Below are positions 37,169 through 39,938 of a DNA stretch of 64,000 nt, piece by piece. Origin of the DNA: Mycoplasmatota bacterium (GTDB taxonomy: Bacteria; Bacillota_I; Bacilli_A; RF39; UBA660); contig JALFKQ010000007.1 of assembly GCA_022774645.1 (NCBI GenBank), positions 1 through 64,000 of the forward strand, written 5' to 3'. How positions within the stretch are numbered: the stretch's first letter is position 1; every line of letters starts with the position of its first letter. Below the pieces are notes generated by a model, which saw only the letters and a program-made list of their open reading frames with translations, did not search any database and was not told where the DNA came from. A program made the position numbers and the translations under genes.

Positions 37169-38707
37169 CTAATCTCTTTTCTTAATCTCTGATTTTATAA
37201 ATTTTATGAATTCTTCAATGCTAAGTGAAATTGTTTCTTCACTATTATATTTTCTAAAACTTATTAAATTATTATCTCTTTCATTATCTCCAATAATTAA
37301 AGTATATGGATTTTTCATAACATTACTTTGTCTAATCTTTTTACCCATTTGCTCCTTTGAATCATCATAACTAACTCTAATATCTTCGTCAATTAATATT
37401 TGTTTTAGTTTTTGACAATATTCATCATGATATTTAATGTTTACAGGTACTATATTTACTTGAACTGGTGATAACCATACTGGTAATACACCTTTAAATT
37501 GTTCAAGTAATAATACTAAAAATCTTTCATAAGAACCTAGAACTGCTCTATGTACCATTACAGGAGTTTGTTTTTCGCCATTTTCATCTATATAGAAAAG
37601 TCCAAATCTTTTAGGAGTTGCAAAATCTAGTTGAACAGTTGGAATTTGTATTTCTCTATCAAGTGCATCTCTAAACATAAAATCAAGTTTAGGTCCATAT
37701 AATGCTGCTTCTCCCTCACATCTTTTTGCATCTAATCTAAGTTCATCAGATATTTCTTGTAATAAACTTTCACATAAATCCCAATCAGACTTTTCACCAA
37801 TATATTTTTCAGGATGTTCATAATCTCTTACTGATAATGACACCCAATGATTTTCCCATAATCCCATTCTAGAATAAAAGTCTTTAATTAAATTGCATAT
37901 ATTAATTATTTCTTGTTTTACTTGTTTCCTAGTACAGAATACATGACCATCTTCAACAGTTATAGCATAAACTCTTGATAAACTATTTCCTACTGCTCCT
38001 TGTAATTCTGCTCTATATTGTTTATCTGATTCCATATATCTAATAGGTAAATCTTTATAGCTTCTTAATTTAGAAGCAAATATTTGAGTATGATGTGGAC
38101 ATTGAACTGGTTTTAAAACAAATTTATGTCCTTTTGGAGATTCAACTCTAAATAATTCTTCATTAAACTTTTGAGCATGACCAGAAGTTTCAAATAAAGA
38201 TATATCGGCAAGTGATGGACAACTAACTTTTTCAAATCCATACTTTTTACATACTCTTTCCATTTCTCTTTTTAATTCATCAATTATAATAGTTCCTCTT
38301 GGAGTAAATAATGGTAGTCCTGCTCCTACATAATCAGAAAAGCAAAACAAATCTAAATCTTGACCTATTTTTCTATGATCTCTTTCCTTTGCTTCTTCAA
38401 TAAACACATTATATTTATCTAAAGCTTCTTTACTTTCAAAGGATTTACCGACTATTCTTTGTATCATTTCATTATTAGCATTTCCTTCAAAATAAACACC
38501 GCTAACTCTTAATAATTTAACATATACTTCATTATCAATTTTTCTTATTTCATTTTCTAGTTTTTCAAAATCATTTTCACTAACTTGTTCATCAGCTTTA
38601 AATTCATAATAAAATTCATCATCATTACAAGACATATTATCTAATCTTATATTATTATAATTATTATTAATTACTTCTTTTAGTAATTCACAACATTTCT
38701 TATTCAT
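37169..38707 (-). CDS. thrS: Short threonyl-tRNA synthetase without TGS and editing core
   Basis: 512 aa against about 640 for standard ThrRS. The class II catalytic core is intact: motif 2 region RYMESDKQYRAEL and zinc ligands in QCPHHTQIF, EDGHVFCT and MVHRAVLGSYERF; the anticodon-binding domain is complete. The TGS domain is missing, and the N2 region keeps only its second part (GVYFEGNANNEMIQRI, EEAKERDHRKIG); the HxxxH and CxxxH editing residues are absent, so Ser-tRNA(Thr) clearance is probably lost. ATG 38707 has a weak ribosome site. Controlled by a Thr T-box and an upstream peptide-terminator unit. Possibly a second, starvation-induced enzyme. Confidence 0.93.
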   Translation of the reverse strand: MNKKCCELLKEVINNNYNNIRLDNMSCNDDEFYYEFKADEQVSENDFEKLENEIRKIDNEVYVKLLRVSGVYFEGNANNEMIQRIVGKSFESKEALDKYNVFIEEAKERDHRKIGQDLDLFCFSDYVGAGLPLFTPRGTIIIDELKREMERVCKKYGFEKVSCPSLADISLFETSGHAQKFNEELFRVESPKGHKFVLKPVQCPHHTQIFASKLRSYKDLPIRYMESDKQYRAELQGAVGNSLSRVYAITVEDGHVFCTRKQVKQEIINICNLIKDFYSRMGLWENHWVSLSVRDYEHPEKYIGEKSDWDLCESLLQEISDELRLDAKRCEGEAALYGPKLDFMFRDALDREIQIPTVQLDFATPKRFGLFYIDENGEKQTPVMVHRAVLGSYERFLVLLLEQFKGVLPVWLSPVQVNIVPVNIKYHDEYCQKLKQILIDEDIRVSYDDSKEQMGKKIRQSNVMKNPYTLIIGDNERDNNLISFRKYNSEETISLSIEEFIKFIKSEIKKRD

Positions 38708-38724: not shown

Positions 38725-38772
38725 TTATTTGCTTTTGAGGGAGAAAATCGTATTAACTTCCGTTTCCGTCAT
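38725..38772 (-). CDS. Upstream ORF of thrS, 15 codons
   Basis: ATG 38772 follows AAAGGAG with 9-base spacing, by far the best ribosome site after the T-box. It encodes MTETEVNTIFSLKSK and stops 17 bases before the thrS ATG. It may couple translation into thrS, or be the trace of the lost N-terminus of a full-length ThrRS. Confidence 0.5.
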   Translation of the reverse strand: MTETEVNTIFSLKSK

Positions 38773-38792
38773 TTTTACCATCTCCTTTATAA

Positions 38793-38848
38793 AATAAAAA
38801 GAGAATGATACCATAATAGGAGTCTATTAAGACGGTACCATCCTCTTG
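38793..38848 (-). terminator. T-box terminator/antiterminator region
   Basis: AGAGGATGGTACC pairs with GGTATCATTCTCT followed by TTTTTATTTT on the minus strand. The 5' arm contains the T-box sequence (GATGGTACCG), which pairs with uncharged tRNA acceptor end in the antiterminator state. Confidence 0.88.
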
Positions 38849-38998
38849 TTTTACTTAATTCATATAACCGATTTAATCGGGCATTCAGTTTCCTGTGCAA
38901 CCTAATAGGTAGTAATTATTATAAATATTTATTATCTTTCACCATATGATAACTCTCTATAAAATACTAACATAATAATCTTGTCCTATATCTTTGTT
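38793..38998 (-). promoter_or_regulatory. T-box riboswitch, threonine specifier
   Basis: Minus-strand leader RNA. Stem I: basal pair ATAGG/CCTAT, then ATTATTAT/ATAATAAT, and an upper part with AGAGAGTTATC...GGTGAAAGATAA, the conserved T-box apical signature. The 3' side of the specifier loop reads T-ACT-A, giving specifier ACU (Thr). A stem III-like GCCCGATT/AATCGG follows, then the T-box and the terminator. Agrees with control of thrS by uncharged tRNA-Thr. Confidence 0.9.
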
Positions 38999-39000
38999 TT

Positions 39001-39035
39001 TAAAATAAAAAGTCTATTACGATTGTAATAGACTT
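39001..39035 (-). terminator. Intrinsic terminator after the Thr-rich leader peptide
   Basis: Perfect 11-bp stem AAGTCTATTAC/GTAATAGACTT with 4-base loop, followed by TTTATTTTA. It lies 13 bases after the leader-peptide stop and before the T-box, so transcripts can end before the riboswitch is made. Confidence 0.85.
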
Positions 39036-39048
39036 GCAGTTTCTTTTA

Positions 39049-39129
39049 CTAAGCAATGCTAAAACAATCAATACTATAAATTGACTTAATTGTTGTATTA
39101 GTTGTCGTAGTTAATTGATTATTTAACAT
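39049..39129 (-). CDS. Threonine-rich leader peptide, 26 aa
   Basis: ATG 39129 with a near-perfect ribosome site GGGGAGG six bases upstream. The peptide starts MLNNQLTTTTNTTIK: six Thr in seven codons (ACT ACG ACA ACT AAT ACA ACA), and ends with TAG at 39049. A terminator follows immediately. This is the layout of ribosome-mediated attenuation, as in thrL of enteric bacteria, but here placed in front of a T-box for the same amino acid. A pairing between codons 15-17 (AAGTCAATT) and the 3' arm of the terminator is possible; how stalling would act on it is not clear from sequence. Confidence 0.75.
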   Translation of the reverse strand: MLNNQLTTTTNTTIKSIYSIDCFSIA

Positions 39130-39157
39130 TATAATCCTCCCCTTTAAAAGCAACTTT

Positions 39158-39186
39158 ATTTTAACAAATTATTAACAATTTGTCAA
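39158..39186 (-). promoter_or_regulatory. Promoter of the thrS leader
   Basis: Minus strand TTGACA at 39186-39181, 17-base spacer, TAAAAT at 39163-39158; start expected near 39150, just before the leader peptide. Confidence 0.82.
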
Positions 39187-39938
39187 TTTTGTGGCTTTTT
39201 TATTATTCTATCCACAATTTTTTCATCTAGTAAATTTACCGTTATAAACTTTCCATCATAAAAAACTGCATAATTATTAAATGGAGATGGAACATTTTTT
39301 GCCTTTTCTAAAGTATCTATAAAATTTAAATTTAATTTTATATTATTGTTTTTACAGTATTCTTTTATTTTATTAATACTTTGATATATAAATGGACATT
39401 GGTAATCATAGTATATTGTTAAGTCTTTTGAATCAATTTCTTCTTTTTTTGATTTTTCACTAAATTTTGGAAATGTATTGTCAAATGATAATGCTAGTAA
39501 TTGGTATCCTGTTTTAGTTTCATCTACTACTTTAAATCCATACTTCTTAGCAAATTCTTGATTTGATAACCAATTTTTTTGTTTAATAGAACCAAGCATA
39601 CAGATTCCACTTTTATTATTTTCTTTTGCGGAATTAATTACATATTCCATTAATTTTTTTCCATATCCTCTTCCTTTGTGTTCACTATCTACCCACATAC
39701 AATGTATATAGTAATAATTCTTACCTTCAATTGGTGTCCAAGCTATTTCTAGTGGAGCATACTCTATAAAAACAGTTGATTTAGTATTTAACTTTCTATA
39801 AATATATCCTTCATTTATTCTATCTTTAAGCCAACTTCTTTTTAACTCTACCGCATCATTCTTTTTAGGATTTCTTAATATACAACATAATACTTCATTT
39901 TCTATATTATCAGTTGTCAAGTTTATAAATTCTTCCAT
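39183..39938 (-). CDS. GNAT acetyltransferase with YoaP C-terminal domain
   Basis: 251 aa. GNAT core: HCMWVDSEHKGRGYGKKLMEYV (acetyl-CoA loop GRGYGK near residue 93). After about residue 165 there is a thioredoxin-like YoaP domain with YDYQCPFIYQ (single Cys). Matches the YoaP architecture; substrate unknown. Its stop lies next to the thrS promoter. Confidence 0.85.
   Translation of the reverse strand: MEEFINLTTDNIENEVLCCILRNPKKNDAVELKRSWLKDRINEGYIYRKLNTKSTVFIEYAPLEIAWTPIEGKNYYYIHCMWVDSEHKGRGYGKKLMEYVINSAKENNKSGICMLGSIKQKNWLSNQEFAKKYGFKVVDETKTGYQLLALSFDNTFPKFSEKSKKEEIDSKDLTIYYDYQCPFIYQSINKIKEYCKNNNIKLNLNFIDTLEKAKNVPSPFNNYAVFYDGKFITVNLLDEKIVDRIIKKPQN

Follow-up and report, generated by a model that had tools for sequence, protein, structure and literature searches.

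A leader peptide and a T-box standing in a row before one gene raise the question of whether both read the charging of the same tRNA in series. In the Firmicutes, leader peptides and T-boxes are described as alternatives, with one taking the place of the other from lineage to lineage (PMC2965389, PMC9413887). The locus considered here lies in the window, a 64,000-nucleotide stretch of DNA from a Mycoplasmatota bacterium, and precedes a gene for a second threonyl-tRNA synthetase (ThrRS). A first-pass annotation made from the sequence had placed a promoter, a leader ORF, a terminator, a T-box and thrS on the minus strand, and all of them were found at the positions claimed (Table 1). It had also counted two threonine sensors in series. 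The serial arrangement stands, but the sensors number three, because a second leader peptide had been missed. Read along the minus strand, promoter P1 comes first, followed by leader 1, terminator 1, the T-box with terminator 2, leader 2 and thrS. Taken together, comparison of related loci and modelling of RNA folding indicate, with a probability of about four in five, that these elements form a threefold threonine-starvation lock on a spare ThrRS that lacks proofreading. At the level of sequence, the elements themselves, their conservation, three alternative RNA pairings and the exchange of Thr for Lys codons in a version before lysS are established.

Table 1. Positions of the elements of the thrS locus in the window, in order of transcription
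Feature	Position	Strand	Basis or remark
Promoter P1, TTGACA-17-TAAAAT, TG before the -10 box	39158..39186	-	11/12 consensus match
Shine-Dalgarno sequence of leader 1, AAAGGGGAGG	39136..39145	-	anti-SD duplex energy -11.5 kcal/mol
Leader peptide 1 (predicted), MLNNQLTTTTNTTIKSIYSIDCFSIA, then stop	39049..39129	-	ORF; 45 homologous leaders
Region 1a, AATAATCAATT, codons 3-6, complementary to region 2	39113..39123	-	92% of cells paired in 45 sequences; slid controls 24-57%
Thr control codons of leader 1	39111-39091	-	6 Thr in 7 codons
Region 1b, AAGTCAATT, codons 15-17, local hairpin with region 2	39079..39087	-	98% of cells paired; slid controls 15-71%
Region 2, ATTGATTGTTTTAG, codons 20-24, antiterminator 5' strand	39059..39072	-	nearly invariant at 45 loci
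Region 3, CTATTACAATC, terminator 1 5' arm and loop, pairs with region 2	39021..39031	-	2:3 core
Terminator 1, 3:4 hairpin of 11 bp, then T-rich tail	39010..39035	-	covariation
T-box leader	38815..39003	-	Rfam RF00230 full-length match, E 5.1e-9, 46.3 bits vs gathering score 93
T-box specifier ACU (Thr)	38911..38913	-	read from the sequence beside the conserved helix
T-box motif AGGATGGTACCGTC, UGGU complementary to the tRNA-Thr A73-CCA end	38831..38844	-	sequence
Terminator 2 of the T-box	38796..38846	-	fold of 38860-38785, z -7.6
Shine-Dalgarno sequence of leader 2, strong	38788-38778	-	
Leader peptide 2 (predicted), MTETEVNTIFSLKSK, then stop; Thr codons all ACG	38725..38772	-	equivalent ORF at 44/45 leader-1 loci
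thrS, second ThrRS, 512 aa, catalytic and anticodon domains	37169..38707	-	TIGR00418, 514 bits

Leader 1 and its predicted RNA switch

A single promoter ahead of the leader had been proposed, and P1 was indeed located upstream of 39129 and is conserved. In nearly all relatives, a promoter of the type TTGACA-17-TG.TATAAT is situated 26-33 nt ahead of the leader-1 start, with a mean score of 11.7 compared to 8.5 for shuffled sequences. The product of the gene upstream of P1 (window 39183-39938) is a GNAT acetyltransferase that includes a YoaP-like domain, and the stop codon of this gene falls inside the P1 -35 box.

The threonine run of leader 1 is conspicuous in the window and among its relatives. 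Six Thr in seven codons occur only once in the 64 kb and in none of 30 mononucleotide shuffles. Within the 45 leader-1 homologues, Thr codons make up 22.7% of the reading frame, compared to 4.5 and 1.4% in the other two frames, and they vary synonymously. Of the 47 related loci with readable upstream DNA, 45 retain leader 1, its Shine-Dalgarno sequence and terminator 1, these 45 being related sequences and hence not independent counts. The exceptions are L068, which has no leader 1, and L091, which has neither the leader start nor the terminator. In terminator 1, 97.6% of cells are paired and 7 of the 11 pairs show two-sided changes, with no equally good result in 500 shuffles; shuffling predicts 0.2 such sites in the region. 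Only its inner 5' arm, which is shared as a partner of region 2, hardly varies. The probability that a Thr-rich stretch merely came to lie by chance at the terminator of the upstream gene, with an ordinary T-box behind it, is negligible; this explanation is refuted by the conservation at 45 loci, the covariation, the conserved promoter and Shine-Dalgarno sequence and the lysine version described below. No covariance-model match to the Rfam Thr_leader family (RF00506) was obtained at the locus at E values up to 10. A decayed copy of the arrangement was seen at L212 (G351:C13:904-1072), where leader 1, terminator 1 and a truncated T-box persist but thrS is gone; the next gene resembles a TsaC/Sua5 protein.

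The threonine attenuator thrL of the Escherichia coli thr operon combines a leader rich in Thr codons with alternative 1:2, 2:3 and 3:4 pairings and an intrinsic terminator. Leader 1 shares the Thr-codon leader, the alternative pairings and the terminator with thrL (Rfam RF00506). Region 2 possesses three complementary partners, namely regions 1a, 1b and 3, and the core 2:3 helix is paired in 98.8% of cells over the 45 sequences, as opposed to 15-71% in the slid controls for the three partners taken together. Moreover, region 2 hardly varies, including at loci whose stop codon falls ahead of it or within it, indicating that its conservation is that of an RNA element rather than of a peptide. 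The same triple partnership explains why little covariation of the 2:3 helix is found within the threonine set. The first-pass annotation had noted a partial pairing between codons 15-17 and the 3' arm of terminator 1. This pairing is present, yet it is the 2:3 helix that is conserved as the antiterminator. The pairing with the 3' arm was rejected, since region 2 is the better and more consistent partner of codons 15-17.

Folding of the nascent RNA, with an assumed ribosome footprint of 14 nt upstream and 15 nt downstream of the first base of the P-site codon, suggests how the three pairings would be ordered. The annotation had called for folding with and without a ribosome at the Thr run. Over the 45 loci, the mean antiterminator probability is 0.80 with the ribosome at the Thr codons and 0.30 in ribosome-free RNA, where the mean for 1:2 is 0.73. 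A null with scrambled downstream sequence gives 0.20 for the ribosome at the Thr codons, and the mean falls to 0.17 with the ribosome on region 2 and to 0.10 with the ribosome at the stop codon. In the window, the values are 0.91-1.00 at the Thr codons and 0 at codons 21-25; the 1:2 and 2:3 pairings are equal without a ribosome, and 2:3 still reaches 0.62 with the ribosome at the stop codon. The earlier doubt that simple stalling logic predicts antitermination is therefore not borne out, since pairing of region 2 with region 3, rather than the pairing noted earlier, does predict it when the ribosome is at the Thr codons. The finished transcript of the window favors terminator 1 in every ribosome state (0.92-0.97), so the decision must fall during transcription and be kinetic, as in classical attenuation. 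The equilibrium itself flips between states in some relatives (L048, L056 and L076), and some members of a Clostridia-labelled clade have a weak or even reversed switch (L079, L082-L084, L089 and L102). Leader 1 thus has a run of Thr codons, a terminator before the gene and, according to folding and conservation, an exclusive antiterminator that is freed by stalling. As judged by comparison and modelling, it is a classical ribosome-mediated attenuator of the thrL type. It differs from thrL in controlling a synthetase paralogue and not threonine biosynthesis, in having a T-box and another leader downstream, and in belonging to a different lineage.

A lysine version before lysS

Further versions of the scaffold were sought with a covariance model of leader 1 in 385 genomes of the order and with the exact region 2 pattern in 386 genomes of the family. 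In six genomes, the same scaffold, with Lys codons in place of the Thr run, is located ahead of a class I lysS. The leader reads MLNSQIKKSIKKNKKSIITIGCFSISSK followed by a stop, or is a close relative of this sequence, and the gene downstream encodes a class I lysyl-tRNA synthetase (TIGR00467). Region 3 of the lysine version differs in its letters, yet it pairs with region 2 at 13 of 13 positions in all seven cases when G-U pairs are counted, which provides independent support for the 2:3 helix. The Lys-codon attenuators ahead of class I lysS have no T-box (L213, L214 and L215, and also L231, L234, L235 and L239). A seventh Lys leader with its terminator (L233, G275:C4:8651) is found ahead of an unrelated 166-aa protein beginning MERKIKWTWRMRR and is perhaps a relic left after loss of lysS or an attenuator with a new target. 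Outside the family and the Clostridia-labelled order, no further versions were found. Weak model hits (L216-L218), which are inside genes or have no leader, were taken as chance matches, as were pattern hits in genes or without a leader (L224, L225, L227, L229, L232, L237, L238, L241, L243, L244, L246 and several more).

The presence of Lys codons before lysS and Thr codons before thrS ties the control codons to the synthetase that is regulated. This bears on a different view of leader 1, in which it would sense antibiotics or stalling in general, in the manner of erm and cat leaders, and threonine would serve only to make the peptide prone to stalling. Residues near the active site of the accessory synthetase downstream are changed, as would be expected of a resistance gene, but the Thr codons vary synonymously and are replaced by Lys before lysS. 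In addition, the peptide following the Thr run is unconserved, its stop position moving while the RNA is conserved. A stall sensor of this kind is consequently very improbable, and leader 1 is best read as a sensor of charged tRNA-Thr.

The T-box and the second leader

The T-box falls short of the Rfam gathering threshold, a shortfall seen in 8 of the genome's 11 detected T-boxes. Its ACU specifier is kept in relatives, and the T-boxes of canonical thrS genes carry the same ACUA. The tRNA-Thr genes of the genome end in ACCA, which matches the UGGU bulge. In a pattern-limited survey of the incomplete assembly, tRNA-Thr(GGU), the best reader of ACU, was not found in the genome of the window. The only tRNA-Thr anticodons found there are UGU and CGU, for which ACU would require a U-U or U-C pair at the third place. 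The genome possesses two divergent tRNA-Thr(CGU) genes and one UGU gene (L141 1501-1576 and L144 1501-1576). ACU is also the commonest Thr codon in the ThrRS genes, as well as the T-box specifier, despite the undetected GGU tRNA.

The order of peptide, terminator and T-box before thrS, for which the annotation had suggested searching related genomes, was found at 30 loci. The pattern that it had named as counting against it was a T-box kept by relatives that had lost the Thr codons or the ribosome site. The reverse was observed: leader 1 persists at 45 of 47 loci, while 15 of these 45 have no T-box. Loci without a T-box are dispersed over a maximum-likelihood tree of the enzyme (L057, L061, L069, L071 and L094), and the T-box is also absent from the Clostridia-labelled clade and from L092, whereas the deep branches L099 and L101 have one. 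Based on this distribution, the simplest reading is that the T-box was lost several times among the relatives.

It is conceivable that the T-box has a promoter of its own after terminator 1, in which case leader 1 and the T-box would feed thrS in parallel. In about half of the relatives, terminator 1 and the T-box are 35-60 nt apart, and the intervening DNA contains a TATAAT that often has a TG extension. However, scores for such a second promoter are barely above those of shuffled sequences (8.1 compared to 7.0). In the window, no promoter was found between terminator 1 and the T-box, where the gap of 20 nt leaves no room for one, and several other loci have gaps of 13-20 nt. A parallel arrangement is thus unlikely, although the possible second promoter means that a strict series is firm only where the gap is at most 20 nt. 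Reading of threonine charging in series by the peptide attenuator and the T-box, as originally proposed, is supported by comparison and computation and remains the probable arrangement.

The second leader lies between the T-box and thrS. Thr accounts for 20% of the codons in leader 2 ORFs, compared to 3.6 and 0.7% in the other frames. These codons are ACG (71), ACC (40), ACA (15) and ACT (12), whereas the ThrRS genes use ACT (357), ACA (145), ACC (9) and ACG (6), so the codons chosen in leader 2 are the rarest ones. Leader 2 codons of the Clostridia-labelled clade shift jointly from ACG to ACC, and the run grows to MTETETDTDTDTNTK; tRNA-Thr(GGU), the reader of ACC, was detected in this clade (G306 and G307). 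The layout is that of the Bacillus subtilis leader peptide rtpLP, an ORF of amino-acid codons right ahead of the gene and 3' of a T-box, where a ribosome on the leader stop codon reportedly covers the ribosome site of the downstream gene. In the present loci, a ribosome on the leader 2 stop codon covers a mean of 40% of the thrS ribosome site; at roughly half of the loci, the site is covered in part or entirely, and at the others it stays free. Folding of the leader 2 region revealed no clear switch of the thrS ribosome site between ribosome states, and a thermodynamic switch was rejected because the states do not differ in folding.

Leader 2 may therefore have a simpler role than that of a sensor, either as a translational coupling ORF or as an operator bound by ThrRS, as in E. 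coli thrS. The very strong Shine-Dalgarno sequence near the thrS start and the lack of a switch in folding are in keeping with this, and ribosomes are known to reinitiate at leader ORFs (PMC4833913). Such a role is possible but doubtful given the 20% Thr, the choice of rare codons, the expansion to MTETETDTDTDTNTK and the concerted change from ACG to ACC in the clade with tRNA-Thr(GGU). We infer instead that leader 2 links translation of thrS to Thr-tRNA.

A second synthetase without an editing domain

An editing domain with the motifs HxxxH and DxCRGPH is usual, though not universal, in bacterial ThrRS. The short ThrRS encoded at this locus has a class II core, an anticodon domain and the Cys-His-His ligands of the catalytic zinc, but the tRNA_SAD domain and both editing motifs are absent from it. 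In contrast, the canonical ThrRS of the genome (G000:C5) possesses tRNA_SAD and both motifs. Upstream regions of the canonical thrS, examined in the genome of the window and in relatives from the genus, contain only a T-box with an ACU specifier. A readable full-length ThrRS also occurs in 15 of the 18 distinct sampled genomes with the short enzyme; of the three exceptions, two are assemblies that are 82 and 91% complete, and in the third the frame is broken.

The distribution of the short enzyme is patchy. Its full short form, at an identity of at least 68%, is found in 12 of 291 genomes of the family besides that of the window, and a scan of 84,980 species genomes yielded about 48 short-thrS loci. 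These are from gut or rumen metagenome-assembled genomes labelled Bacilli, Erysipelotrichaceae or Clostridia. No relative of the short ThrRS was found to be encoded on viral contigs. A single genome contains two short thrS copies, each with its own leader 1, terminator and leader 2 (L083 and L085, both JAFWDV01). The divergent ThrRS class of the short enzyme seems to be common to full-length enzymes of some Bacilli and Patescibacteria (L050-L053 and L113-L134), with SGHxxKF instead of the canonical SGHWxHY (seen in L050 and L053). Compared to its own canonical ThrRS at the listed inhibitor contacts, the short enzyme has changes corresponding to human H391 to K and Y392 to F. Borrelidin resistance was rejected as an explanation for the short ThrRS, because full-length relatives of the same class share both changes, which are thus no proof of resistance.

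The nearest functional parallel is the T2 enzyme of Anabaena, which likewise accompanies a canonical ThrRS and is impaired in proofreading (PMC4787780). T2 is inducible, responding to low zinc by way of Zur, and keeps a damaged editing domain (PMC4787780). The short ThrRS differs in that its editing domain is deleted and its control involves threonine sensors and not Zur.

The threefold lock favored here could operate as follows. Polymerase would start at P1 and a ribosome would translate leader 1. With ample Thr-tRNA, this ribosome would pass the Thr codons onto region 2, and the 3:4 pairing would form terminator 1. If tRNA-Thr is instead uncharged, this ribosome would presumably stall in the Thr run and cover region 1a, allowing region 2 to capture region 3 and polymerase to continue past terminator 1. 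As a second lock, uncharged tRNA-Thr bound at the ACU specifier and the UGGU bulge would prevent terminator 2. The third, inferred as a whole, would couple translation of thrS to Thr-tRNA through the rarest Thr codons of leader 2; most likely, a ribosome completing leader 2 beside the thrS start would block thrS, and one stalled earlier would not. The short ThrRS may then serve as an emergency backup, and the temporal order given here is likewise a proposal. A more far-reaching interpretation is about evenly balanced between right and wrong. It holds that the three sensors are independent, read different tRNA-Thr isoacceptors in series and form an AND gate, such that the error-prone, editing-less ThrRS would be made only when charging of every tRNA-Thr collapses, and that the first sensor represents an undescribed attenuator family with exchangeable Thr and Lys codons in uncultured Bacilli and Clostridia. 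The physical basis of this gate would be stalling on mixed Thr codons in leader 1, tRNA binding via ACU in the T-box and stalling on rare ACG or ACC codons in leader 2.

Each part has known counterparts. Tandem T-boxes occur on thrS and thrZ of Bacillota, and ThrRS is the one Bacillota synthetase known for such stacking (PMC12452182, PMC2494555). The tandem sensors of thrS and thrZ are all T-boxes, whereas two of the sensors at the present locus are predicted to be translated leader peptides. Histidine leader-peptide attenuators of hisS, hisZ and his operons in Firmicutes are likewise ribosome-mediated and stand partly before synthetase genes (PMC2965389, PMC9413887). In those cases, the peptide replaces the T-box, while both are in series at this thrS. 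The at (rtpA) operon of B. subtilis is similar in having a T-box followed by rtpLP, a leader of amino-acid codons, for one tRNA, and the two act on transcription and then on translation (Chen and Yanofsky 2003, 2004, cited in PMC11255114 and PMC4027176). That operon differs in that it responds to Trp, its gene encodes anti-TRAP and it is not known to have a terminator-type peptide attenuator ahead of the T-box. In the open-licence literature, no reports were found in which a T-box is combined in series with a peptide attenuator of the terminator type, or in which all three elements occur together. The locus thus appears to unite known parts in a new combination and to represent a new modular attenuator family.

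In conclusion, at least 30 genomes place a peptide attenuator and a T-box, usually described as alternatives, one after the other ahead of a single gene and have another leader peptide behind the two. Relatives without single layers amount to natural deletion experiments. Moreover, the exchange of Thr for Lys control codons between thrS and lysS shows that a leader-peptide attenuator, like a T-box, is a module open to re-targeting. The arrangement also raises the question of why the tightest lock would be placed on a synthetase without editing, while the main ThrRS carries a single T-box.
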